A DNA stretch of 64,000 bases from IMG/VR virus record IMGVR_UViG_3300042402_002841, positions 62,001-126,000 of that record; one strand, written 5' to 3'. This document shows positions 8,201 to 52,680 of the stretch, one piece after another (within the stretch, counting starts at the first letter, position 1; each line of letters opens with the position of its first letter). The DNA comes from a virus. Both the position numbers and the translations under genes were made by a program. The notes beneath the pieces were generated by a model, which was given only the letters and a program-made list of their open reading frames with translations, had not been told where the DNA came from and ran no database searches.

Positions 8201-11200
8201 TGCAACCCTTGCACCACTCAGGTTGTACTTTTCAGCAATTTCTTTTGCTGACATTCCAGATAGAAAATCTCTAAAAATATCATTATCAGGAATTTGAGTA
8301 CCGTCTTCTGAAACGGTGCGAACTGGTCTTTGCAGGTTTCTTTCACCCCGTGTAGATGCTCTACTCTGTGAAGCCAATCCACCTCTACGGATATCATCTG
8401 GAACATATTGAGCAGGTTTTCCGCCTTCTCTAATAACACCACCGTCAGGAACGCCAGTTAGTTGTTCAATTTCATCATCGCTTAAACCAAGTTCTCTAAG
8501 TTTTTTGAAAACATTTTGGTCAAATTGCGCTCTTCTTTCGCGAGCCTCAGTTGGGTCAACATTTCCTCTTTCATCTCTCTGAATCTGACCATCTCGGCCA
8601 AGCATTGTGCCGTCTCCACGGCGAGATGTTGAAGCAAGACCTCCAGTAAGTGTCCGTTTTGCTCTTACTCTTTCTTGTAAGAATTCAGAATTTAGCCTTG
8701 CATCTTCAAGTTCATCCATAACCCCCTCATTTAGCCCGTTTTTAAAATAATCTTCCCAAAGCGAATTGATTTGTGGGTCGTTTGGATTTTCTTCAAATCC
8801 TTTTTTAGTTGCTCTTTGCAACTCTTTAGAAAAATCCTCTAAATCAATTGATGGGTCTAGTTCTATTATGTTTTCAACTTCAAACCAAAAATCCGCTTCG
8901 CTCATATCTGGCTCTCCGCTTTGAAGTGCCTGAATTAAATTTTCTTTTTTCTGAGACGATTCTTTTTTAGCGTCTTGAATTTCCTTATCAGTTGGTGGTT
9001 TGTTTGCCGACAGGCGACGAGCAGTTTTAAATACCGAATCTGACCATTCATCAACCGTTTCTTCAATCAGTTCATTAATTTTGTCTTCTTGTTTTCTAGA
9101 AGCGTTTTTAGGCATCATTCTTTCTGCAAGCATGCCTCTAACTGCGTCTGTTAAAGCCCTACCAACATCTTCGGATATATATCTATCAAAATTTCTTTCG
9201 CTGCTTTGCAGATTGAGATAATCATCAAAATCTCCGTTTTTTATTGCATCAAGGAAATTTTTTTTAGTTTCAGACAGCATTTCTTCGTCGTCATCAAGAT
9301 TTGAAATTATGTTTTTAAGTATGTCTGCATGTTTATCTGGGATACCGCTTCTATCAATAAATTTGTCCGACACGGGCTTTGAACCAGGACCGCTAACAAT
9401 TTCTCCCCTAAGAACTTCTGGTTTTTTTTCTACAGAAGTTGAAGCAAGTCCGCTTCTTCTCTTTTTTGCGAAGATGGATTCTGGATTCCATGAATCTGGG
9501 TTTTCCCAAGTTCTTTCGCTAAAAAAATCATAAACTTCGTCGTCAAATACTTTTTCTAAGCCCGCCTTACTGACAACCCCTTCATATTTTTCGTTAACCG
9601 CTACACCATATTGTTCTAGCAATCCAGCAAGAATATCTGAATCTTTTTCGGTGCCGTTTGCTAATTCAGTAAGTTTTTCTTTCATCTTTGTTTTGTCTTT
9701 AAGATTTAAGATGTCTAAAACTTCTTTTGAATTTTCTAAATCAAACTCTAAATCGTCTTGATAAAACTTACGAAGACCTTCAGCACTTTCAACGATGTCG
9801 TCAAGAAGTTTTTCATCAGAGCGAACAGCGTCAAGCATCGTTGTGCCCACTCTGCTTCCTGGTTCTCCCCCTGAATAATGAAAAAACGCTCTAGCCAACT
9901 CTTCGTTAGTTCTGTCTTCAAACCATTCTTCGTGGTCTTGTTCACGGGGGGTTAAACCTCTATATGAGGCTAGACCTTGTCTTTTTGGCTCTTTGGGAGT
10001 AGGGGTTTGTCTTCCTTGATTAAATGCACGAGTTGCTGCTTCAGCATCTACTCGGCCACCAGTGGACCTGTCGTTAACACCTGGGATTGCAGGGCGCTTA
10101 AATGGTGTTCCTTCTTGGACTACACCGTCTCCGTCACCATCCCATGCGTTTGGGTCAAACCTTGCCGCCCCTCTGGCGGCTCTGCCCAATTTTCCCAAGC
10201 CTCCGCTTAGCGTGCGCCCCAGGGCTTTTTCGGCCACGCTAATGGCCTCTATAAATTCGCTAGTGACACCAGATGTAACCACGATTCCGTCTTCTGTTAC
10301 ATGCGATTCAACTCTGTGGTAATCAAAAATTGGGTCAAGAAGTTGTTTTGTTTGAAAAGCGTTCTCAATAGGAACTGGGATTATATAGTCGCTCTTAACT
10401 TCAACATCTTTTTCTGCGGACGCAATTACTTCTTGCAGGTTTTCAAGAATGGCCTTGAGTCTTGACATGTTCTTACCACTAAGGGCACGCCCAACTTTTA
10501 CATCAAGTGAGTCAGAAATAATATTTGCTAGGTCTGCAAAATCTTCATCAAAAGACCATTTTTCGTCATTCTCGTAAGACTTTGGCATAATTATGCCATT
10601 CTCACCCATGTCGTCGCCCATATAGGCATTTCCTTGAGGTTTTACCTGCATTGGCATTGAAGGCATTTGTGAAGGAACAACGACTCGTGAGCCAGATTCT
10701 TCCGAAGATGGCATGTAAACGGTTTGCACAGAAACCTTTTCTGGCTTACCAAACATGAACTCTCTACCTGTGTAGTGGTACGCAACTCTGTAGGTTGTAG
10801 GCGCACCGTCTGGTGTCATTCTGTCAAAAATTACTGTATTTTCTTCTGCGAGACGAACTTTTACTGGAGCACCAGCACGGACAGCCAATTCAATCTCTAA
10901 TTGATTCTTGCGCTCATCTCCCACTCTTGGCTTATTTGCTTCAAGAATGTTAGGGGTTGGCCTTTGGTGTCTGTGCGGTATTCCACGGTTGCTTTGCAAC
11001 ATCAACATTCCGCCCTTGGAATCATCAATCATGGTTGAATCATCTGACTTTACTGAAATTGTTCCAGTCAACTGGTTGGCACCATGTAGAACTGGCGAAA
11101 CTTCGTAAAGTTCTACTTCTTTTAAGATGTTGGCCTGAAGATTGGGGTCAAAAATTGAATCAAGAGTCTTATAGCCGATTGACCATTCTTGTTCTTGTCC

Positions 11201-19906: not shown

Positions 19907-20098
19907 ATGAACATTCATTCACCTGAAAATATTGAGTCATATCTTTCTTTAGTTAGCAAACTAAATAAAAAATACAAAGGTAGAGATTGGTCGGATAGGC
20001 ATTCAATTATTTTAACAAGTGCTTTATTTTATGAAGTTGCTTCCAAAATTGTTGAACTTCAGAATCGCATTGAAGAACTAGAAGCAGATAATGACTAA
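19907..20098 (+). CDS. Small helical protein between ParB and PP-loop genes
   Basis: The ATG at 19907 follows the ParB stop by two bases and the gene overlaps the next by eight. The 63-residue product begins MNIHSPENIESYLSLVSKL and ends in a leucine-zipper-like VELQNRIEELEAD. No family recognised. It is conserved in layout with the module, which suggests a linker or dimerisation partner. Confidence 0.6.
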   Translation: MNIHSPENIESYLSLVSKLNKKYKGRDWSDRHSIILTSALFYEVASKIVELQNRIEELEADND

Positions 20099-21233
20099 GC
20101 AGAGAATGTTTCTAGATATATCCTGTGTTGATGCTGCTCGGCAAAGGATAAGACATGTCTATGATACTTTTGATACTGTTTGCGTTCAGTTTTCTGGAGG
20201 AAAAGACAGCACAGCAGTTCTTTACTTGGCTAAAGAAATTCATGAAGAGCGAGGACTAGGTCCAGTAAAAGTAATCTTCAGAGACCAGGAAATGGTAAGC
20301 CCTCTTGTTTATGACTATGTAGAAAAAGTTATGAATTATGACTGGGTGGATATGGAGTGGTACTGCCTTCCGTATGCTCAAGAAATTTGGGTGCTTGGGG
20401 TTAGGGAAAACATATTGGCTTGGGACCCATACAGGGAAAAGGCTGGCATGCTTGCACGCCCCATGCCTCCGTGGGCTATTAATGCATCTCATTTTGGGAT
20501 GCCTATGGACCAAACTCTTCCAGAAGGAATTGATTACTACACAATGCAGGGAAAAACGGGAAGCGTGGCTTTTATAACTGGAGTTCGTGCAAACGAATCT
20601 ATGGTTCGCTATCGCTCCTTGGTTCAAAAGGTGCACGAAAATTATATTGTTAGTCCGTACAAAATGAAAAAGTCAATACCTTTAAAGTTTGCAAAAGTTA
20701 TCTATGACTGGCAAATGGATGATGTATTAAAATTTATTTCAGAAGAACATGATGCTGAATATTGTGAGTACTACGACCTTGCATCAATGACTGGCTCAAA
20801 TACCAGGGTTGGTGTTCCTCTTCATGCTGTTGCAATTAGACGCATTGGAGACCTTGTCGCAACTGAGCCAGATTTTTACGACACACTATGGTCAGTATGG
20901 CCAAATATTGATGCTCAGAGACGCTGGTGGCCAGAGTTTGATATTGAAAAATTTATTGAAAATTATGCTGCTGATGGATTTAGGGGCGCAAAGCGATGCA
21001 TAGAGGAAAACATGCTTGACGATTTTGACAAGCGTCGCGCTCGTGCTTATGTTGCTGATTTTAGAAAAAAACATTTAAAAGACCCATATTCATATCCAAT
21101 GAATTGGCTTATAAGAAACTTGTTGTTAAATGAAATAACTATTTCTGCAGCAGCGCCAGTTGGTCCCAAAACCAAAGCAGACACTCTTAGAAAAAAACTT
21201 GCAGAACAGGAATTAAATAATGCAGAAAATTGA
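20091..21233 (+). CDS. PAPS-reductase-like PP-loop protein (IbrA-like)
   Basis: The 380-residue product carries the PP-loop SGGKDS (about residues 35-40) of the adenine-nucleotide alpha-hydrolase / PAPS reductase family, followed by FRDQEMVSPLVYDYVEKV. It continues with the long C-terminal extension typical of IbrA-like and phage members rather than the short CysH tail. TGVRANESMVRYRSL resembles the Arg-containing substrate loop. No CysH-type C-terminal cysteine pair is visible, which argues against plain sulfate assimilation. Flanking ParB-like genes suggest an adenylation or thiolation chemistry on DNA or RNA, which is inference. Confidence 0.85.
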   Translation: MTKQRMFLDISCVDAARQRIRHVYDTFDTVCVQFSGGKDSTAVLYLAKEIHEERGLGPVKVIFRDQEMVSPLVYDYVEKVMNYDWVDMEWYCLPYAQEIWVLGVRENILAWDPYREKAGMLARPMPPWAINASHFGMPMDQTLPEGIDYYTMQGKTGSVAFITGVRANESMVRYRSLVQKVHENYIVSPYKMKKSIPLKFAKVIYDWQMDDVLKFISEEHDAEYCEYYDLASMTGSNTRVGVPLHAVAIRRIGDLVATEPDFYDTLWSVWPNIDAQRRWWPEFDIEKFIENYAADGFRGAKRCIEENMLDDFDKRRARAYVADFRKKHLKDPYSYPMNWLIRNLLLNEITISAAAPVGPKTKADTLRKKLAEQELNNAEN

Positions 21234-40411: not shown

Positions 40412-44086
<3,675 letters not shown>

Positions 44087-44438: not shown

Positions 44439-45170
44439 ATGGCAAGACGATTTACTAGCATTCAAAGAATGAATGTGCCAAATCCGATGGCACAGTTTCT
44501 TGATGCGGCTGACCCTATTTACGGCACGGGTGTAGACGGTAATGTCACCCTTGATGGCTCAACAACAATCCTTGGAATGGAGCCAGCATCTAGTAAATAC
44601 ACAATGACTTCTGATTTGTATTTCCATAACCTGACACTCAATGCAAATATCCACCTGCAAACAAACGGTTATCGTTTATTCGTAAAAAATCAATTAAACA
44701 TGGCTAACGGGTCAAGAATTGGATTTACTACTGGCTTCGCTACTGCTGGCTCAATTGCTCAGGGCGGTGGGGTTCTCGGAGCAGTAACAAACAGTCTTGG
44801 TGGGGCAGGACTAAATGTGGCAACTGCCGTAACGGCAACTGCACCAACAGAGGCTCTTGGGGGCGCAAAGTATTACACAATCCCTCATCAAGCAGTGAGA
44901 GGGTGGGCGGCTACCGCTTCTGCTACTACCCCAACATTTGTAAGAGGAGGAGCAGGTGGTTTAGGACAGGCTGGCGGTGGAGTGGTAATCATCGCCGCAA
45001 GATATATAACCGTCACCTCTGGTACTGCCGTTATTTCTGCTCCCGCAACCGCCCCTGCTGGTGGCGGAGTAATTCTCATTGTCTCTTCTCACTCGGCACT
45101 TCCAGCAGGTCTCACTACTGATGTGACTGGGCAAAATCCTGGCACCGTCAACTACATGCAACTGGTGTGA
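44439..45170 (+). CDS. Gly-rich beta-helical tail protein (paralogue 1)
   Basis: GAGGAATA precedes the ATG. The 243-residue product reads DPIYGTGVDGNVTLDGST, then DLYFHNLTLNANIHLQTNGY and RLFVKNQLNMANGSRIGFTT, followed by glycine- and alanine-rich strands. The next gene begins with a matching DAIYGNGSDGDATVNED ... TNGFRVFVQNTLN, so the two are tandem duplicates. The fold is probably an elongated beta-helix; a tail tip or adhesin role is inferred. Confidence 0.7.
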   Translation: MARRFTSIQRMNVPNPMAQFLDAADPIYGTGVDGNVTLDGSTTILGMEPASSKYTMTSDLYFHNLTLNANIHLQTNGYRLFVKNQLNMANGSRIGFTTGFATAGSIAQGGGVLGAVTNSLGGAGLNVATAVTATAPTEALGGAKYYTIPHQAVRGWAATASATTPTFVRGGAGGLGQAGGGVVIIAARYITVTSGTAVISAPATAPAGGGVILIVSSHSALPAGLTTDVTGQNPGTVNYMQLV

Positions 45171-45173
45171 TGT

Positions 45174-46805
45174 ATGGAGCGAGTAAATAAGACAATCGTC
45201 CAGAGAGCGGGCAATGACGCCATCTATGGAAACGGGTCCGATGGAGATGCAACGGTTAATGAAGATGTAATAATTACCTCAGATATGTACTATAGAAACC
45301 TGACTATTACAGGCACTGGGTTTTTAAGAACAAACGGGTTTCGCGTTTTTGTGCAAAACACACTTAATATCCAGTCTGGTGGACAGATAGGTATTGGTCT
45401 ATCTGGGGGGAACGACCCTTCTGATGTTTCTAATGGAACAGTCGCTGGTCATGCAACTTCATCTATTTCGTATCGTCTTGGCGGTCAAGGTGGTGGTGGT
45501 ACCGACCCAAACATTCCCACTCTTCCATCTTTTCTTCTTAAAGACATCAATGTTTTGTCTCAAGGATTATTCTTTGACCCAGCACTTGGAGTGGTCGCTT
45601 TACGGGGTGGCTCCAAGGGGACTACTGGTTCTGCTGGGGCAACAACACCCGCTTTAACCAATTCGGATTCATGGCCTGGTAAGGCTGGTGCGGCTGGGTC
45701 GCCAGGAAGCACAAGCAACTATGGAACAGTAAACCCAAATGCAAGTACGGTCGGTGTTCCTGGCGGTAGGGGGAATCCTGGAAGTGATGGAAACGCAACT
45801 GGGGCAACACCTGGACTTGGTGGGGCTGGAGGTTCGGGCGGCTCAGGCGGTCCTGTTGTTTGTGTAATTGCAAGAATTATTACTGGTTCTGGCTCTATTG
45901 TTTCTAGGGGAAAACTAGGTTCTGCGGGCTCGTCTGGGTTAACTGGAAACCCTGGAACACAAGGAGCAAATGGTTCTCCAGCCCCAAATAGTTCACACCA
46001 CACTCCTAACCCACACCACCATGTGGCTCCTAGTAGAAATTTTAGTTTTACTCACTCTTCAAGTCAGCACTCAGACCTGTTTATGCATTGGGTAAAAGCG
46101 GCAAATCATCACAACCCAGCGGCACATACTGCAGCAAGCGGTAAGACCCCTGCACACCACAGGCCAGCCGCATTCCATGAAAATCCCCACCATCACCACA
46201 CTGGTGGATTTCATAACCCAACAAATGATGGAACATTCGGCGGTCAGGCGCACTGGTTTTCTAACTCATGGCATGCGAGATATCAAGTGCACCACGCAAC
46301 TCCCATATCTTTTGTTTTTCGCAAATCTGCTGGTCACTCAAGTGGGAGCGATGTCAACTCACAGGCAGGAAATGGAACCCATAACTTGGTTTTCTGGCAC
46401 AATCATCTAGGTGGAGACAATCAAAATGTTGCGTGGGGTAGGTCGCTTATCCATAGTCCAATTTTCCATAGTTTTACTGGGCCTCATGTCCATACGCCAG
46501 CACATACCGTTAACCCAAACTGGACTCACCATACAAATCCAGATGCCGCCCAAACGCCAGCGGCAGTAGATACAGTTTTTCCTGGTGGTGCGGGTGGTGT
46601 AAACAATGGAACCACAACAGGCGTTCGTGCCCCAGCAGTGACTGGGGGCACGGGTAAGCCTGGCGGTAGCGGTGGAGGCGGAGTCGTATTGGTTATAACA
46701 GACAGTGTTTCTGGTACTATTACCTACGATACAAGCGCGCGAACACCTACGGAATCAGACAGTGTTAGCGCTACCGATGGCGCAGCGTATATTCTTATAA
46801 ATTAA
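45174..46805 (+). CDS. Gly- and His-rich fibre/adhesin (paralogue 2)
   Basis: 543 residues, sharing its first 70 residues with the neighbour at 44439. The middle is glycine-rich (LGGAGGSGGSGGPVVCVIAR). A block from about residue 280 to 460 is unusually rich in histidine: SSHHTPNPHHHVAPSRNF, NHHNPAAHTAASGKTPAHHR, ENPHHHHTGGFHNPTNDG. A glycine-rich C-terminus ends in GAAYILIN. Metal-coordinated histidines stabilise some phage fibres (for example T4 gp37), so a metal-bound adhesin is plausible. No enzyme motif. Confidence 0.72.
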   Translation: MERVNKTIVQRAGNDAIYGNGSDGDATVNEDVIITSDMYYRNLTITGTGFLRTNGFRVFVQNTLNIQSGGQIGIGLSGGNDPSDVSNGTVAGHATSSISYRLGGQGGGGTDPNIPTLPSFLLKDINVLSQGLFFDPALGVVALRGGSKGTTGSAGATTPALTNSDSWPGKAGAAGSPGSTSNYGTVNPNASTVGVPGGRGNPGSDGNATGATPGLGGAGGSGGSGGPVVCVIARIITGSGSIVSRGKLGSAGSSGLTGNPGTQGANGSPAPNSSHHTPNPHHHVAPSRNFSFTHSSSQHSDLFMHWVKAANHHNPAAHTAASGKTPAHHRPAAFHENPHHHHTGGFHNPTNDGTFGGQAHWFSNSWHARYQVHHATPISFVFRKSAGHSSGSDVNSQAGNGTHNLVFWHNHLGGDNQNVAWGRSLIHSPIFHSFTGPHVHTPAHTVNPNWTHHTNPDAAQTPAAVDTVFPGGAGGVNNGTTTGVRAPAVTGGTGKPGGSGGGGVVLVITDSVSGTITYDTSARTPTESDSVSATDGAAYILIN

Positions 46806-46817
46806 CGGGAGAAAATA

Positions 46818-47054
46818 ATGGATTTTGGATTAACCACAGAACAGAAGCGCACCATACTTCTGTCGTCAAAAACAAACATTCTTAACGACATGTATGTTTT
46901 GTTGATTAGAATCGGAGTTGACCCAGATACATTTGACGGTTCACTTGACCTCCCCGAGGACGATTCTTCAATCCGTGGGGAAAGATTGCGCATTGAAAAA
47001 CTGGTGCAATCTCTTGAGTTGATTAACACAAAACTAGAAGACCTTGAGGTATAG
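46818..47054 (+). CDS. Small acidic helical protein (paralogue of 50342 gene)
   Basis: GGGAGAAAATA precedes the ATG. The 78-residue product reads LTTEQKRTILLSSKTNILND, then RIGVDPDTFDGSLDLPEDD and a C-terminal coiled coil. The VDPDTF turn and spacing match IDPDSF in the protein at 50342, indicating duplicated adaptor-like proteins bracketing the enzyme cassette. Function unknown. Confidence 0.68.
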   Translation: MDFGLTTEQKRTILLSSKTNILNDMYVLLIRIGVDPDTFDGSLDLPEDDSSIRGERLRIEKLVQSLELINTKLEDLEV

Positions 47055-47063
47055 TTTCGCTTT

Positions 47064-47486
47064 GTGAAACTTTTTGTCTACTGCCCTGAGCAGTATAATA
47101 ATCAATCAGGCTCTCCAGAGTGGGAATTCGCTTTAGATTTGTCAAAAAATTCTAAGTTGCCAATAGTTTCCAATATAGAGACTTTTAAACATATAGAAAA
47201 ACCACAAGTTATTTCTGTTCCAGAGAAACAAATTTACAACATTGAGAAAACCGTAAAATCTGGATTCATACATTCAATTGACATAACTGACGAGTTTTAC
47301 GAAATTCAAAAATCAATAGTTGCTTGCTTTACCCATGAAGATGGCGGAACATACCAAGAAGTGCCAATTATTAAGGAAAAGCACAAAGCAAAATTTAGGG
47401 TCCGACATTACAAAAGTGGCGAATACACTGTCATTGTAAGAGATGAACAAAAAGAGTTTATTAATGATAGTTTTAAGGTTGTATGA
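47064..47486 (+). CDS. Unknown protein before the oxygenase
   Basis: GTG start, 140 residues. MKLFVYCPEQYNNQSGSPEW, then KHIEKPQVISVPEKQIYNIE and a beta-sandwich-like C-terminus (KAKFRVRHYKSGEYTVIVRD). It is coupled to the oxygenase gene by an ATGA overlap, so it is probably its partner or substrate. No family recognised. Confidence 0.62.
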   Translation: MKLFVYCPEQYNNQSGSPEWEFALDLSKNSKLPIVSNIETFKHIEKPQVISVPEKQIYNIEKTVKSGFIHSIDITDEFYEIQKSIVACFTHEDGGTYQEVPIIKEKHKAKFRVRHYKSGEYTVIVRDEQKEFINDSFKVV

Positions 47487-48064
47487 AAGTAGAAAAACCG
47501 AACACCTGCATCAATGTCTATAAAGATGTTTTTTCGGCAGAACATTCTTTAGAGTTTATTAAAATGCTTGAAAAAGAAACAGAAAATGAATGGTCAGACC
47601 TTGAGTGGGGAAATTCAGGTACTGGCTCTGGGTTTGTGACTCAAGTAAGAACATCGTTGGGATGCCTATTAGTGTCGCTATTTAGGCCATATGAACCTAC
47701 TGAATTGTCGGAGTATTTTCACCAAAATATATTTTCACATGTAGAAGAAGTTGTCCGTGATTACATTCAGGAGAATGTATTACACGAGGGCGTTCACGAG
47801 CCATATAGCGTTTTAAAATACTACGAAAATACCGAATACCATGCCCACTATGACCACTTTAGAGATAACCGCAGGGCATTTAGTGTTGTGGCAAATTTGA
47901 TGGCACCAGAAGAGGGTGGAGAACTGGAGTTTCCACGAATGGATGTTTCAATTAAACCAGAAATCGGCTCTGTAGTTATTTTTCCAAGCAACTTCCCTTA
48001 CCTGCATATTGCGCACCCAGTAAAATCTGGACTAAAATACTCACTTGTATCCTGGTACTCGTAA
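47483..48064 (+). CDS. 2-oxoglutarate/Fe(II)-dependent oxygenase (prolyl hydroxylase type)
   Basis: The 193-residue product shows the double-stranded beta-helix iron site: His and Asp in YHAHYDHF (near residues 120-126), the distal His in LHIAHPV, and the 2-oxoglutarate-binding Lys or Arg near GLKYSLVSWYS. LMAPEEGGELEFPRMD and GSVVIFPSNFPY are family strands. This matches prolyl 4-hydroxylase-like enzymes, which need Fe(II), O2 and 2-oxoglutarate. Position near a GPT collagen-like fibre and next to a halogenase suggests fibre modification. The substrate is not shown by the sequence. Confidence 0.88.
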   Translation: MKVEKPNTCINVYKDVFSAEHSLEFIKMLEKETENEWSDLEWGNSGTGSGFVTQVRTSLGCLLVSLFRPYEPTELSEYFHQNIFSHVEEVVRDYIQENVLHEGVHEPYSVLKYYENTEYHAHYDHFRDNRRAFSVVANLMAPEEGGELEFPRMDVSIKPEIGSVVIFPSNFPYLHIAHPVKSGLKYSLVSWYS

Positions 48065-48071
48065 GGAAAAA

Positions 48072-49562
48072 ATGGACAATCTCCCAATTATAAAAATTTC
48101 TATTGCTGGTTCTGGAACCGCTGGTTTAGTTTCTGCTCTTCTCATGAGGTCTGCATTCCCAGCAGCAGAAATAACTGTTGTTTCATCGTCTCAAATTGGA
48201 ATTATTGGGGTTGGTGAAGGCAGTACTGAACACTGGCGCAACTTTATGGATTTATGCGAGATACCTGTTGAGGACCTTATTGTTGCAACCAAGGCGACTC
48301 ATAAATATGGAATCAGATTTGAGGGCTGGACAACACACACGCCTGATTATTTTCATAGCGTTTCTAGTGTTGATGATATTTTTGCTCATCAGTATTACGC
48401 AACATATTTAGGTCATATTGAACGAAAAAAAATGATTACGAGCCAAACTGCGAGCATCGGCCTAATTAGGGACAAAATTAACAGAAACAATCTGCATCAC
48501 TCAACTAATCAGTATCATTTTGATACCCACAAATTAAATGAATTTCTAGTAAGTCTTGCTTTTAAGAGAAATATTAGATTTATTGATGATGAAATTGAAA
48601 GTGTAGAAGTTTCAGAATCTGGAATCAATTCGGTAACAATGAAATCTGGATTTGTTCTTGATGGTGATTTTTGGATTGATGCCACTGGTTTTAAGCGTGT
48701 TTTAATTAAAGAACTGTCAGACATGAAATGGGAGTCTTTTTCAGATTATCTACTGTGCGATAGGGCGGTTGTTTTCCAAACACCAAGCGACCCAAGTGGA
48801 AAAATCAAATCATACACACGGGCTAGAGCCGCTTCTGCTGGCTGGGTGTTTGAAATACCCACCCAAGAGCGTCGTGGTAATGGTTATGTATTTTCATCAA
48901 AACACATCACTGATGAGGAAGCCAAAAAAGAACTGTCAGAAATGACTGGTTATGATGCTTCAGAAGCAAGGGTTATTAGTTTTGATGCGGGATATATTAA
49001 AGAGCCGTGGGTTAAAAACTGTTGCGCCATTGGATTGTCTTCCTCCTTTGTAGAGCCACTAGAAGCAACAAGTATCGGAAGCACGATTCAGCAAGTAAAA
49101 ATGCTTATACCTTCATTGGCTTCTTTTAATAAAAAAACATCTAAATCTCAGAGAGTTTACAATAAAAACTTTTCAGTAATGATGAACAATTTGCTCACCA
49201 TGATTCGCTTGCACTACTACAGCGACAGAGTGGATACAGACTTTTGGCGAGACATGAAGGAAATGCCAGTCAACGAAACTCTTCAAGACATGATTGATAT
49301 CTGGGGAGAACGCGGTCCAACTAGAGATGATTTTTCAAATTACTATTTCAACCTTTTTGGTCCAGCACATTTTACTCATGTCGCTCAAGGGCAAGGGCTG
49401 TTTAATCCAGAATCATGCGGGCTTGCTCTGGAAAGAATGGAAATAAGAACTGTAGTAGAAAAAGAAATCGCCAACCAGAGGCATTACAGAATTGCTCATG
49501 AATTGGTTGACCACGCTCAGGCCCTTAAAGAACTAGAGGAAGCAGACGGTGATTGGCAATGA
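48072..49562 (+). CDS. FAD-dependent halogenase (tryptophan halogenase family)
   Basis: The 496-residue product starts after AAGGA. IAGSGTAG (residues 11-18) is the FAD-binding GxGxxG. GVGEGSTEHW (46-55) is the second conserved box. ATHKYGIRFEGW places a Lys at 78, where PrnA and RebH carry the catalytic K79. GWVFEIP (about 257-263) is the WxWxIP box with Phe replacing the second Trp. VEPLEATSIGS matches the PLEST region whose Glu is catalytic. The enzyme should chlorinate or brominate an electron-rich substrate using FADH2 and O2. No flavin reductase was found nearby, so the host may supply it. The family call is strong, the substrate unknown. Confidence 0.9.
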   Translation: MDNLPIIKISIAGSGTAGLVSALLMRSAFPAAEITVVSSSQIGIIGVGEGSTEHWRNFMDLCEIPVEDLIVATKATHKYGIRFEGWTTHTPDYFHSVSSVDDIFAHQYYATYLGHIERKKMITSQTASIGLIRDKINRNNLHHSTNQYHFDTHKLNEFLVSLAFKRNIRFIDDEIESVEVSESGINSVTMKSGFVLDGDFWIDATGFKRVLIKELSDMKWESFSDYLLCDRAVVFQTPSDPSGKIKSYTRARAASAGWVFEIPTQERRGNGYVFSSKHITDEEAKKELSEMTGYDASEARVISFDAGYIKEPWVKNCCAIGLSSSFVEPLEATSIGSTIQQVKMLIPSLASFNKKTSKSQRVYNKNFSVMMNNLLTMIRLHYYSDRVDTDFWRDMKEMPVNETLQDMIDIWGERGPTRDDFSNYYFNLFGPAHFTHVAQGQGLFNPESCGLALERMEIRTVVEKEIANQRHYRIAHELVDHAQALKELEEADGDWQ

Positions 49563-50341
49563 AAAAAGAAAAGATTAAACCAGGACAAATAAGAATTACG
49601 CCATCAGACAACCGCTTGTTGACAATGCCTCCCCATGTGAATGCAATCAACAACCCTCCTTCTTGGTTTTCAAAAATCAGTAAAGAGCGAGGCTCTATTA
49701 GGAGATGCGCTGGAACCATTGACATGTTGTCTGCAGGGATAACAATTCCGTGCTGGACAAATTTTGACTTTAAACTGGATGACAAAACAAAAACATGGGA
49801 GACAAGAGGTTCTAATTTTGGTGGCACGAGAGGCCACCAGGATGTTGGGGCTATAGAACATTTTCCATATCAATCAGTTGGCGAATGTCCAATTTCATCT
49901 ATTAGAAAAGTAGAAAATTCTTTTTATCCGAAATTAATTAATCCATGGAAAATAGAAACAGCACCAGGTTGGTCTATTTTACAGATGCCTATCTATTGGG
50001 AACCAAACGAAAATTACACAATTCTTCCAGCAATTATTCATACAGACTTTTACCACACTGCAAATATAGTTTTGAATTTAACCTCAGATAAGCCGTTTAC
50101 TATCAAATACGGAACTCCTTTGGTACAGATAATTCCGTTTAAAAGAGATTCAGATTTTGAATCTATAATATTTGAAGACGAATCAAATTTTAAATATGTT
50201 GATTCTACTGGTTTTGGTTTTGGTCACATTTTTCCTACAAACGGAACTTCTGGTCCCTATAGGAGAGAAAAAATGCGAATTGACGAAGAATTGGCTAATC
50301 AGAAACAGTCTTTAGTTGACAAGATTTTGAGGAGAAAATAA
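49559..50341 (+). CDS. Unknown protein coupled to the halogenase
   Basis: Coupled to the halogenase by an ATGA overlap, 260 residues. KIKPGQIRITPSDNRLLTMP begins a beta-rich protein with PGWSILQMPIYWEPNENYTI, IIHTDFYHTANIVLN and GTPLVQIIPFKRDSD, a cupin-like or double-psi-like strand order. No family is recognised with confidence. The tight coupling suggests it works with the halogenase or carries its substrate. Confidence 0.65.
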   Translation: MKKEKIKPGQIRITPSDNRLLTMPPHVNAINNPPSWFSKISKERGSIRRCAGTIDMLSAGITIPCWTNFDFKLDDKTKTWETRGSNFGGTRGHQDVGAIEHFPYQSVGECPISSIRKVENSFYPKLINPWKIETAPGWSILQMPIYWEPNENYTILPAIIHTDFYHTANIVLNLTSDKPFTIKYGTPLVQIIPFKRDSDFESIIFEDESNFKYVDSTGFGFGHIFPTNGTSGPYRREKMRIDEELANQKQSLVDKILRRK

Positions 50342-50599
50342 ATGAACACAGAAGACCAACTTGCTGCACTGGAAAGAACAAAGAATCTTATTGAAAAAGA
50401 GTTGTATACGCAGTTAATGTTTTTAGGCATTGACCCTGATTCTTTCTCTACTGACGAATTTGATTCTAATGCTTTTCTTGCATCCGCTCCAGAAAACCCG
50501 ACAAACTTTGAGTGGCTTGCATATCTTGCTATCGCTAGATTTGTCCCCAGACTAAAAACGGCAGAAAGCCAAATCTTGGAGATTTCTAATGAAGTTTGA
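50342..50599 (+). CDS. Small helical protein (paralogue of 46818 gene)
   Basis: The ATG directly follows the previous stop. The 85-residue product reads MNTEDQLAALERTKNLIEKE, then LGIDPDSFSTDEFDSN and ends in a coiled coil (ESQILEISNEV). The IDPDSF segment and layout match the protein at 46818. It overlaps the next gene by 11 bases. Function unknown. Confidence 0.68.
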   Translation: MNTEDQLAALERTKNLIEKELYTQLMFLGIDPDSFSTDEFDSNAFLASAPENPTNFEWLAYLAIARFVPRLKTAESQILEISNEV

Positions 50600-51248
50600 T
50601 GAGGAAACACTTTTACGAAATGTACCAGTAAGCCATTTTGGTGTTTTTTTGCTTTTTAAGGCTATATGGGTAAACGAATCAGAGGACGAGAGCGTCGGCT
50701 CAAGCCGCTGTGACAATCTTGATTATGGCGGTGTTCCTGTTACTCATGGCACCTCTTATCAGGACGAATCATTAAACGCTGGATTGGCTTCCAAGGCTTC
50801 AGAATTCACTCTTGCTGTCACCAATATTAAAAGATACGAGCATGTCATTGAAGCGATACCCAACTATTACATCACCTATATGGAGATTGTGAAAACAGTA
50901 AATGGTGTAGAAATAATTGGAGTGTCCATAGAGGACGACCCAACCCCTCAAATGATGTGGGTGGGAAAGAATTTTCACCAGTTGCTTAAGATTATGCGTG
51001 AGTGGTCATTCATGCTGGACGAGCCTTTCAACTCTGACCATCCAATGGCTGAATACTCAAAGAAGTTCTTTGACCACACTCAACCTCCCCAAAACATCCT
51101 GGACGAGATAGATTCATACCCAGATATGCAGTTGGCTAAATTCTTAAAAGGCCAAGACGACTATCGCAAGATTCCAGAATTCCCAGACATGTCGGAAGAC
51201 ATGAAGCAATGGGTTTTAGAAATAGCAGAACAGCACGGACCTCAATGA
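50589..51248 (+). CDS. Unknown protein in the enzyme cassette
   Basis: 219 residues. PVSHFGVFLLFKAIWVNESE opens the protein; TPQMMWVGKNFHQLLKIMRE and PDMSEDMKQWVLEIAEQHGP close it. No catalytic pattern is recognisable. ATGA overlap with the following membrane protein gene and overlap with the previous gene show a single transcript from the oxygenase to the glycosyltransferase. Confidence 0.65.
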   Translation: MKFDEETLLRNVPVSHFGVFLLFKAIWVNESEDESVGSSRCDNLDYGGVPVTHGTSYQDESLNAGLASKASEFTLAVTNIKRYEHVIEAIPNYYITYMEIVKTVNGVEIIGVSIEDDPTPQMMWVGKNFHQLLKIMREWSFMLDEPFNSDHPMAEYSKKFFDHTQPPQNILDEIDSYPDMQLAKFLKGQDDYRKIPEFPDMSEDMKQWVLEIAEQHGPQ

Positions 51249-51616
51249 CAACTATTGAAGAACAAATGCGAAAATCATTCTTTGACCATTTCTTCAACGG
51301 GGAAGAAGTTGAAATACTTGAAAAGACTCCTAATAACAAAATTATTAGCACCATAAAAACCATGGGTCGTAAAGAATATTGGACCCGAGTAAATCTTATT
51401 GAGGCATATGGGTTCACAATTAGAATTTCTATTATCTTTCCAGGTTTGCTTTTTAACAAATCGTGGTGGTGGCTTTATATTTTTGCAATTATTGCTAGTT
51501 TTCTTTTGATTTGGACATCAACCAAAAAAACTCTGCCAACAATTATTTTATTCAATATGATGTGGATTGTTCTTTCTGTTCTTTTTATCACTAAACACTT
51601 TTGGTGGGGCCAATGA
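51245..51616 (+). CDS. Membrane protein upstream of glycosyltransferase
   Basis: 123 residues: a soluble N-terminal 60 residues, then hydrophobic spans (IRISIIFPGLLF, WWWLYIFAIIASFLLIW, TIILFNMMWIVLSVLFI) consistent with two or three membrane segments. It overlaps the glycosyltransferase start by ATGA. Possibly it anchors the downstream enzyme at the membrane; this is inference. Confidence 0.65.
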   Translation: MTTIEEQMRKSFFDHFFNGEEVEILEKTPNNKIISTIKTMGRKEYWTRVNLIEAYGFTIRISIIFPGLLFNKSWWWLYIFAIIASFLLIWTSTKKTLPTIILFNMMWIVLSVLFITKHFWWGQ

Positions 51617-52680
51617 GATTCCATGTAGTTTCTCTTCCGCATACAAATACAACCAAAGATTTTACGGCTTGTGCCTATACGGAGAAGGTCCGCAAGTTCT
51701 GCATCATGATGAAGAACCTCGGACATACCGTGTATCTATATGCAGGCGAGCATAACGAAGCGCCGTGCGATGAACACATTGTGTGCATTACCGAAGAACA
51801 GCGTCTTGAGGTTGTCGGAAACAATCACTACTCGGCTGCATCCTTTGACTGGAACCTTCCTCACTGGAAATCCTTCAATAGCAATGTCATTAAAGGTATT
51901 CAAGAACGCCTAGAGCACAAAGACTTTATTTGTCTTATTGCTGGTTACGCCTCAAAGCCGATTGCTGACGCATTTCCTAGCGAGTTGAGCGTGGAGTTCG
52001 GAATTGGATATGGCGGTTCCTTCGCCCCCTACAAGGTATTTGAATCCTACGCATGGATGCACTCCTGCTACGGCTCAAAGGTAACCGACCCACATGCTCT
52101 TGATGGCAAGTTCTATGACGCAGTAATACCGAGTTACATAGAAGTAGAAGACTTTCCAACACAATCAGAGCCAGATGATTACTACCTGTACATCGGGCGA
52201 CTAATTGAGCGCAAGGGCTACCAGATAGCCGTAGATGTCTGTAAACATCTGGGTAAACGCTTAATAATCGCAGGTCACGGAACACCACCCGAGTACGGTG
52301 AATATGTCGGTGTTGTAGGAACCGAAGAGCGAGCCAAACTCATGGGTGGAGCAATCGCTACATTTACTCCAACTATCTATGTAGAGCCTTTTGGAACCGT
52401 TGCCGTAGAGGCTATGGCATGCGGGTCACCTGTCATCTCCACGGACTGGGGCGCTTTTACTGAGACCGTAATAGATGGGGTGACTGGCTTTAGGTGTCGT
52501 ACAATGCAAGATTTTGTAGACGCCGCTGAACAAGTCAAAAAACTAGACAGAAACCTTATTGGCGAGTATTCAAAAAAACGCTATGGTCTAGACGCGGTTG
52601 GGTTTATGTATGAAGTTTACTTTACTCGCCTTCAAAGCCTATGGGGTAAAGGTTTTTATGAACTGAGAGAAGTAGAATAG
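51613..52680 (+). CDS. Glycosyltransferase, GT4-like (GT-B fold)
   Basis: The 355-residue product has the GT-B C-terminal half with YIGRLIERKGYQIAVDVCKH, LIIAGHG and the nucleotide-sugar motif EPFGTVAVEAMACGSPVIST, whose E-x7-E binds the donor. ATGA couples it to the membrane protein. Base composition here is slightly more GC-rich than in the neighbouring genes. It could glycosylate fibre threonines in GPT repeats, as known for bacterial collagen-like proteins, or modify host wall polymers. The acceptor is not deducible. Confidence 0.9.
   Translation: MRFHVVSLPHTNTTKDFTACAYTEKVRKFCIMMKNLGHTVYLYAGEHNEAPCDEHIVCITEEQRLEVVGNNHYSAASFDWNLPHWKSFNSNVIKGIQERLEHKDFICLIAGYASKPIADAFPSELSVEFGIGYGGSFAPYKVFESYAWMHSCYGSKVTDPHALDGKFYDAVIPSYIEVEDFPTQSEPDDYYLYIGRLIERKGYQIAVDVCKHLGKRLIIAGHGTPPEYGEYVGVVGTEERAKLMGGAIATFTPTIYVEPFGTVAVEAMACGSPVISTDWGAFTETVIDGVTGFRCRTMQDFVDAAEQVKKLDRNLIGEYSKKRYGLDAVGFMYEVYFTRLQSLWGKGFYELREVE

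Follow-up and report, generated by a model that had tools for sequence, protein, structure and literature searches.

A flavin-dependent halogenase gene within a conserved phage cassette that encodes a Gly/His-rich fibre-like protein

Annotations of viral halogenases go back about two decades, and one of these enzymes, VirX1, is a valued biocatalyst. To our knowledge, the natural substrate or purpose of the viral enzymes is not known. A further member of this family, 496 amino acids (aa) in length, is encoded on the plus strand at positions 48072–49562 of the 64,000-nt stretch of DNA analysed here (the window), which comprises bases 62001–126000 of the 132-kb IMG/VR virus record IMGVR_UViG_3300042402_002841. 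Among solved structures its best sequence match (2e-64) is BrvH of Brevundimonas (PDB 6FRL), an enzyme with indole substrates for which no biosynthetic cluster is listed and whose tunnel motif is the variant FLEPLESTS (PMC8407142). BrvH carries the same catalytic Lys and Glu, but is bacterial, belongs to a separate clade and lacks the GEGSTEHW motif. The tryptophan halogenases PrnA, RebH and Thal likewise share the family, the cofactor motif and the catalytic pair; they are, however, natural-product enzymes acting on free tryptophan, whereas no biosynthetic genes were seen in the neighbourhood of the window gene by open reading frame (ORF), Pfam and PHROG scans, as the first-pass annotation had stated. 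VirX1/Syn9 gp41-gp42 (PDB 6QGM) are phage halogenases, and the Syn9-type gene order of Gly-rich adhesin-like genes, a small gene, halogenase, a dUTPase-fold gene and oxygenases resembles that of the window. VirX1 nevertheless falls in a separate tree group, is the weakest of the 30 PDB matches of the window enzyme and has GEST in place of GEGSTEHW, and its locus differs in having two halogenases in tandem and a Gly-rich protein that is unrelated and lacks a strong His block.

The window halogenase belongs to a cassette whose order across relatives is FIB-S (~240 aa), FIB-L (400–1100 aa), a protein of ~77 aa, a protein of ~135 aa, a 2-oxoglutarate (2OG)-Fe(II) oxygenase, the halogenase and a 260-aa protein. 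In the window all of these genes lie on the plus strand: FIB-S, a 243-aa Gly-rich fibre-like protein (44439–45170) with a homologue at the same place in all clade loci with enough flank; FIB-L, a 543-aa Gly/His-rich fibre-like protein and candidate substrate (45174–46805); a 78-aa protein without Pfam match (46818–47054), whose counterparts in L002, L007 and other loci are homologous and equally placed; a 140-aa protein with a GTG start (47064–47486), whose L002 homologue is 28% identical (4e-13) and whose place is held by an ORF of ~135 aa in most cassette loci; a 193-aa prolyl-4-hydroxylase-like oxygenase (47483–48064; PF13640, 8e-14); the halogenase; and the 260-aa protein (49559–50341; phrog_7084), whose start overlaps the halogenase stop in an ATGA at 49559–49562. 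One or two further genes sometimes lie between oxygenase and halogenase, and another 2OG oxygenase often follows the 260-aa gene.

Linkage within the cassette was assessed in a set free of retrieval bias, consisting of 53 distinct relatives (<90% identical) retrieved by the halogenase alone. The Gly-rich FIB pair was present upstream of the halogenase in all 47 loci with enough flank, the larger protein carried a His-rich block in 45 of these 47, and the 260-aa gene lay downstream in 49 of 50. An oxygenase of the cassette type was found at 48 of 62 loci in a wider set that is not bias-free. The converse search by FIB-S gave 76 loci, of which 17 were without a halogenase, each reaching the contig end within ~3.3 kb (largest remaining sequence, 1.5 and 3.3 kb). 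Cassette ORFs had a homologue in 65% of other loci, while the corresponding figures for ORFs within 4 kb to either side were 21% and 17%; the cassette is therefore conserved beyond its surroundings. In one phage contig (L103) the cassette occurs twice, and each copy has a separate fibre pair, oxygenase and halogenase. That the adjoining oxygenase and the coupled 260-aa gene belong with the halogenase, as first proposed, is borne out by their conservation across the loci of relatives, and the accompanying guess of a protein substrate, perhaps a fibre, is consistent with this neighbourhood. FIB-S had no match in cultured phages, so the cassette is not tied to any isolate. Nothing relevant to a halogenase with a tail fibre, or to His-rich tail fibres, was found in the literature covered, which leaves out most subscription journals; within it there is apparently no description of the cassette, nor of Gly-rich adhesin-like genes accompanying viral halogenases in two distinct halogenase clades.

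The halogenase ORF is genuine. Its ATG at 48072 is preceded by an AAGGA ribosome-binding site, the frame is open to a TGA stop at 49560–49562, and the product matches PF04820 over residues 7–443 (E 3e-103; 346.6 bits against a curated cut-off of 21), thus as a full-length family member, and PHROG 2928 ‘tryptophan halogenase’ (4e-107). All motifs named in the first-pass annotation were found in the sequence, and its assignment to the FAD-dependent halogenases, with an intact catalytic pair, is supported. The dinucleotide-fold motif GxGxxG reads GSGTAG and is accompanied by GEGSTEHW; K78 (codon 48303–48305) and E331 (codon 49062–49064) occupy the positions of the catalytic Lys and Glu in BrvH and in the tryptophan halogenases (K79 and E346 in PrnA), and the Lys is without exception in an alignment of 86 sequences. 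The WxWxIP motif reads WVFEIP (48843–48860), with Phe for the second Trp as in 3 of the 33 clade members, the other 30 keeping WxW. Variants and absences of this motif occur among these enzymes (PMC8407142), so it is not strictly defining. The tunnel motif FxxPxxSxG, its spacing taken from aligned sequences, reads FVEPLEATS, with Ser replaced by Ala and Gly by Ser, and its PLEATS portion contains E331; the Ala is fixed throughout the clade and shared by about half of the sampled bacterial relatives. The match is far beyond chance: other viral copies are 59% identical to it, and ten diverged sequences share dozens of invariant columns. The family is under strong purifying selection, with a ratio of nonsynonymous to synonymous substitution rates of ~0.08–0.12 in close pairs of relatives. 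Judged by its sequence, the window enzyme is an additional member of the known flavin-dependent halogenase family, with predicted halogenation activity.

FIB-S, which directly follows the gp10/collar/collagen tail protein, is nearly devoid of His throughout its family (0–4 per 100 aa). The N-terminal part of FIB-L resembles FIB-S, to which a long His-rich insert is added. FIB-L of the window contains 35 His, of which 34 fall within a block of 184 residues (residues 273–456; 45990–46541) that also holds 12 Phe, 6 Trp and 1 Tyr. Among 89 distinct homologues, total His is at least 10 in every one (median 45), the 100 residues richest in His hold a median of 26 and, in 87 of the proteins, at least 12, and the motifs HH, HHH and HxH occur in 98%, 75% and 97%, respectively. 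Trp was considered as the general fibre target and ruled out, as 24% of FIB-L homologues have only 0–1 Trp. Among aromatic side chains, the one present in abundance in every FIB-L is His, which would be the likeliest residue to be modified if FIB-L is the substrate.

The oxygenase retains the HxD...H triad of iron ligands, with H122, D124 and H175 conserved in 259–262 of 262 relatives and the basic 2OG ligand K185 in 238. For the 260-aa protein, an AlphaFold2 model from 61 sequences reached a mean predicted local distance difference test (pLDDT) score of 92.6; an earlier model from 5 sequences (pLDDT 52) already matched dUTPases. The top structural matches of the model are dUTPases (Z ~9.3–10, 106–139 residues aligned, root mean square deviation 1.9–7.5 Å; Foldseek E 1.3e-4), a profile comparison of the family with dUTPase motif III gave E 0.002, and PF00692 matches 22 of its 61 members (best 1e-6). 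As modelled, the protein has a dUTPase-like fold with similarity in the motif III/IV region; the description of it as a coupled unknown protein thus holds for the coupling, given the ATGA overlap, and not for it being wholly unknown. It differs from the dUTPase superfamily in extra N- and C-terminal parts and in the position of the catalytic Asp of motif III, which aligns with His161 and is His in 43 and Asn in 18 of the 61 members. As the Asp is replaced in all of them, dUTPase activity of the standard mechanism is unlikely, and the protein has probably lost dUTP hydrolysis.

In a tree of 86 rows, the window halogenase falls within a 33-row clade (support 100) whose members are viral or lie on metagenome-assembled genome (MAG) contigs bearing the same phage cassette, and thus it groups with viral enzymes. 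A bacterial origin of the clade was considered and rejected, since its three ‘bacterial’ members (L259–L261) sit on such contigs and hence appear to be phage contigs binned with bacteria. These three are GTDB MAG contigs (Actinomycetota, Gammaproteobacteria) and merely hint at host groups. Contrary to the first-pass view that halogenases are rare in viruses, a halogenase relative is carried by 78 of 50,697 phage records, and an IMG/VR scan with a ten-sequence profile confirmed at least 588 stretches as halogenase matches. Such genes are present in 20 of 153 cyanophage (cyanomyovirus) genomes (PMC10452541), and prnA in 6 of 16 cyanomyoviruses (PMC3037559). In cyanomyoviruses such genes are common, and among viruses from the environment they are very common.

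An association with adhesin-like genes is also seen outside the clade. VirX1-type halogenases lie directly after Gly-rich adhesin-like genes in Syn9, S-RIM44, P-RSM6, S-SZBM1, P-TIM40 and S-WAM1, six cyanophages that are related to each other and do not count as independent cases. The same dUTPase-fold family stands right behind the halogenase in Syn9, S-RIM44 and P-TIM40, and oxygenases follow in several. Only 3 of the 147 ORFs of Syn9 are Gly-rich, all directly upstream of the halogenases at a distance of 638 bp, and a random point would be as close with a frequency of 2.8%. In S-SRM01 a divergent halogenase lies immediately before a gene annotated as a gp37-gp38 adhesin tip. A different type of phage halogenase locus is represented by the viral contigs L008 (3394–9042) and L010 (6879–10361), which have three tandem halogenase genes and many ORFs of ~200 aa, without the FIB pair.

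A tail-fibre cassette whose halogenase and hydroxylase act on side chains, those of the Gly/His-rich fibre being the most plausible, is a tentative reading to which we give a chance just short of even. As an FADH2-dependent member of the PrnA/BrvH superfamily working within this cassette, the halogenase would be supplied late in infection with FADH2 by a host flavin reductase; none of family PF01613 was found in the phage record, whereas one is present in 13 of 14 control genomes, which is consistent with supply by the host. Hypohalous acid would be formed by the halogenase from FADH2, O2 and halide and be guided by K78 and E331 to an electron-rich ring. The aromatic side chains of FIB-L, His above all with Trp or Tyr, would thereby be halogenated, and the 2OG oxygenase would hydroxylate the same protein. 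The dUTPase-fold protein may bind or scaffold the fibre and present it to the halogenase, and the phage may gain a stiffer, metal-binding, stickier or protease-resistant adhesin. Marine animals offer an analogy for such chemistry, though not evidence. Halogenated His and Tyr, including 5-bromohistidine, occur in their structural material (PMC8659048), and the Nereis jaw proteins Nvjp-1 and Nai11527 are Gly/His-rich structural proteins of a halogen- and zinc-rich material (PMC13120676); these are animal proteins for which no homology is claimed and with which no flavin halogenase is known to be associated. The wider proposition, that phages halogenate and hydroxylate their own adhesin by way of a dUTPase-derived presenter to yield a virion part with halogenated histidines, and that the VirX1 family serves the same purpose in nature, appears doubtful.

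Several points weigh against fibre modification. We know of no flavin enzyme that halogenates peptidyl His. Gene order is an association that does not give the substrate, and its conservation is partly inheritance, given the relatedness of the IMG/VR phages. The label ‘fibre’ comes from the position of FIB-S and FIB-L beside the gp10/collar/collagen protein and from their composition, and neither matched the annotated tail families. Two of the 47 loci (L150 and L165) retain the halogenase with a poor His block, and P-SSM2, S-PM2, Syn1, S-B64 and S-SSM7 carry their halogenases away from fibres, so fibre modification need not be the role of all phage halogenases. The location of these cyanophage enzymes would also suit an auxiliary metabolic gene acting on a small molecule such as free tryptophan, indole, a host metabolite or a pigment, placed in the tail region only by late-gene packing. 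Its purpose might be an antibiotic or a blocked host pathway; antibiotic protection was guessed by earlier authors (PMC2984593), and the best characterised relatives (BrvH, the tryptophan halogenases and, in vitro, VirX1) use small aromatics. Such a role is nonetheless unlikely. The cassette lacks biosynthetic genes, the halogenase is partnered by an oxygenase and by a dUTPase-fold protein in which the catalytic Asp is replaced, and a metabolic gene would hardly be expected to show near-perfect linkage to FIB-S and FIB-L at loci with differing flanks.

The enzymes could instead act on another target, namely the collagen-like tail protein (40412–44086, with GPT repeats), a host surface molecule or a polysaccharide, with the Gly/His-rich protein, loaded with metal, serving in structure or binding and needing no modification itself. 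The prolyl-4-hydroxylase-like nature of the oxygenase next to a gp10/collar protein with ten collagen-repeat stretches, the HxH and HHH motifs of FIB-L, which would bind metal, and a glycosyltransferase at 51601–52680 all suit this explanation; it is held to be quite unlikely, FIB-S and FIB-L being constant neighbours in the cassette whereas the collagen-like protein is not. An enzyme of halogenase fold that hydroxylates or oxidises rather than halogenates would accord with the clade-wide Ala of the tunnel motif and with the loss of the second Trp, the Trp motif being thought to prevent monooxygenation (PMC8407142). This is improbable given that no sequence has lost the catalytic Lys or Glu, that about half of the sampled bacterial relatives have the same Ala and that WxWx(I/L)P is intact in 30 of the 33 clade members.

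The window also encodes a terminase, a contractile tail sheath, baseplate and collagen-like tail proteins. The gp10/collar protein (1224 aa), with its GPT and GAT triplets, is a possible second target of the prolyl-4-hydroxylase-like oxygenase, and a phosphoadenosine phosphosulfate reductase-like gene (20091–21233) sits amid the structural genes. After the 260-aa gene, an 85-aa ORF (50342–50599) appears to be a divergent duplicate of the 78-aa ORF that precedes the oxygenase, sharing a pattern around ‘Y..L...G.DPD.F’; this repeated small protein is possibly an assembly helper. A 219-aa ORF (50589–51248) resembles part of a 372-aa L002 protein, and similar proteins of 350–375 aa occur directly before the halogenase, inside the cassette, in other loci. 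An optional cassette gene for ~235 aa precedes the halogenase in L108, L107 and L136 (~9240–9977), and the C-terminal half of its product recalls a methyltransferase-like pattern (IKPGGLLIVSNSS). A Pfam scan gave no clear match for either optional gene.

By naming a concrete candidate protein substrate, the cassette gives viral halogenases a testable job, and the linkage of FIB genes and halogenase in some fifty distinct related viruses suggests viruses that chemically decorate the protein used to touch the host. If fibre modification is true, phage adhesins would undergo a post-translational chemistry that the literature covered does not describe, and many auxiliary metabolic genes now listed as ‘2OG-Fe(II) oxygenase’ or ‘tryptophan halogenase’ would belong to virion maturation rather than to host metabolism.
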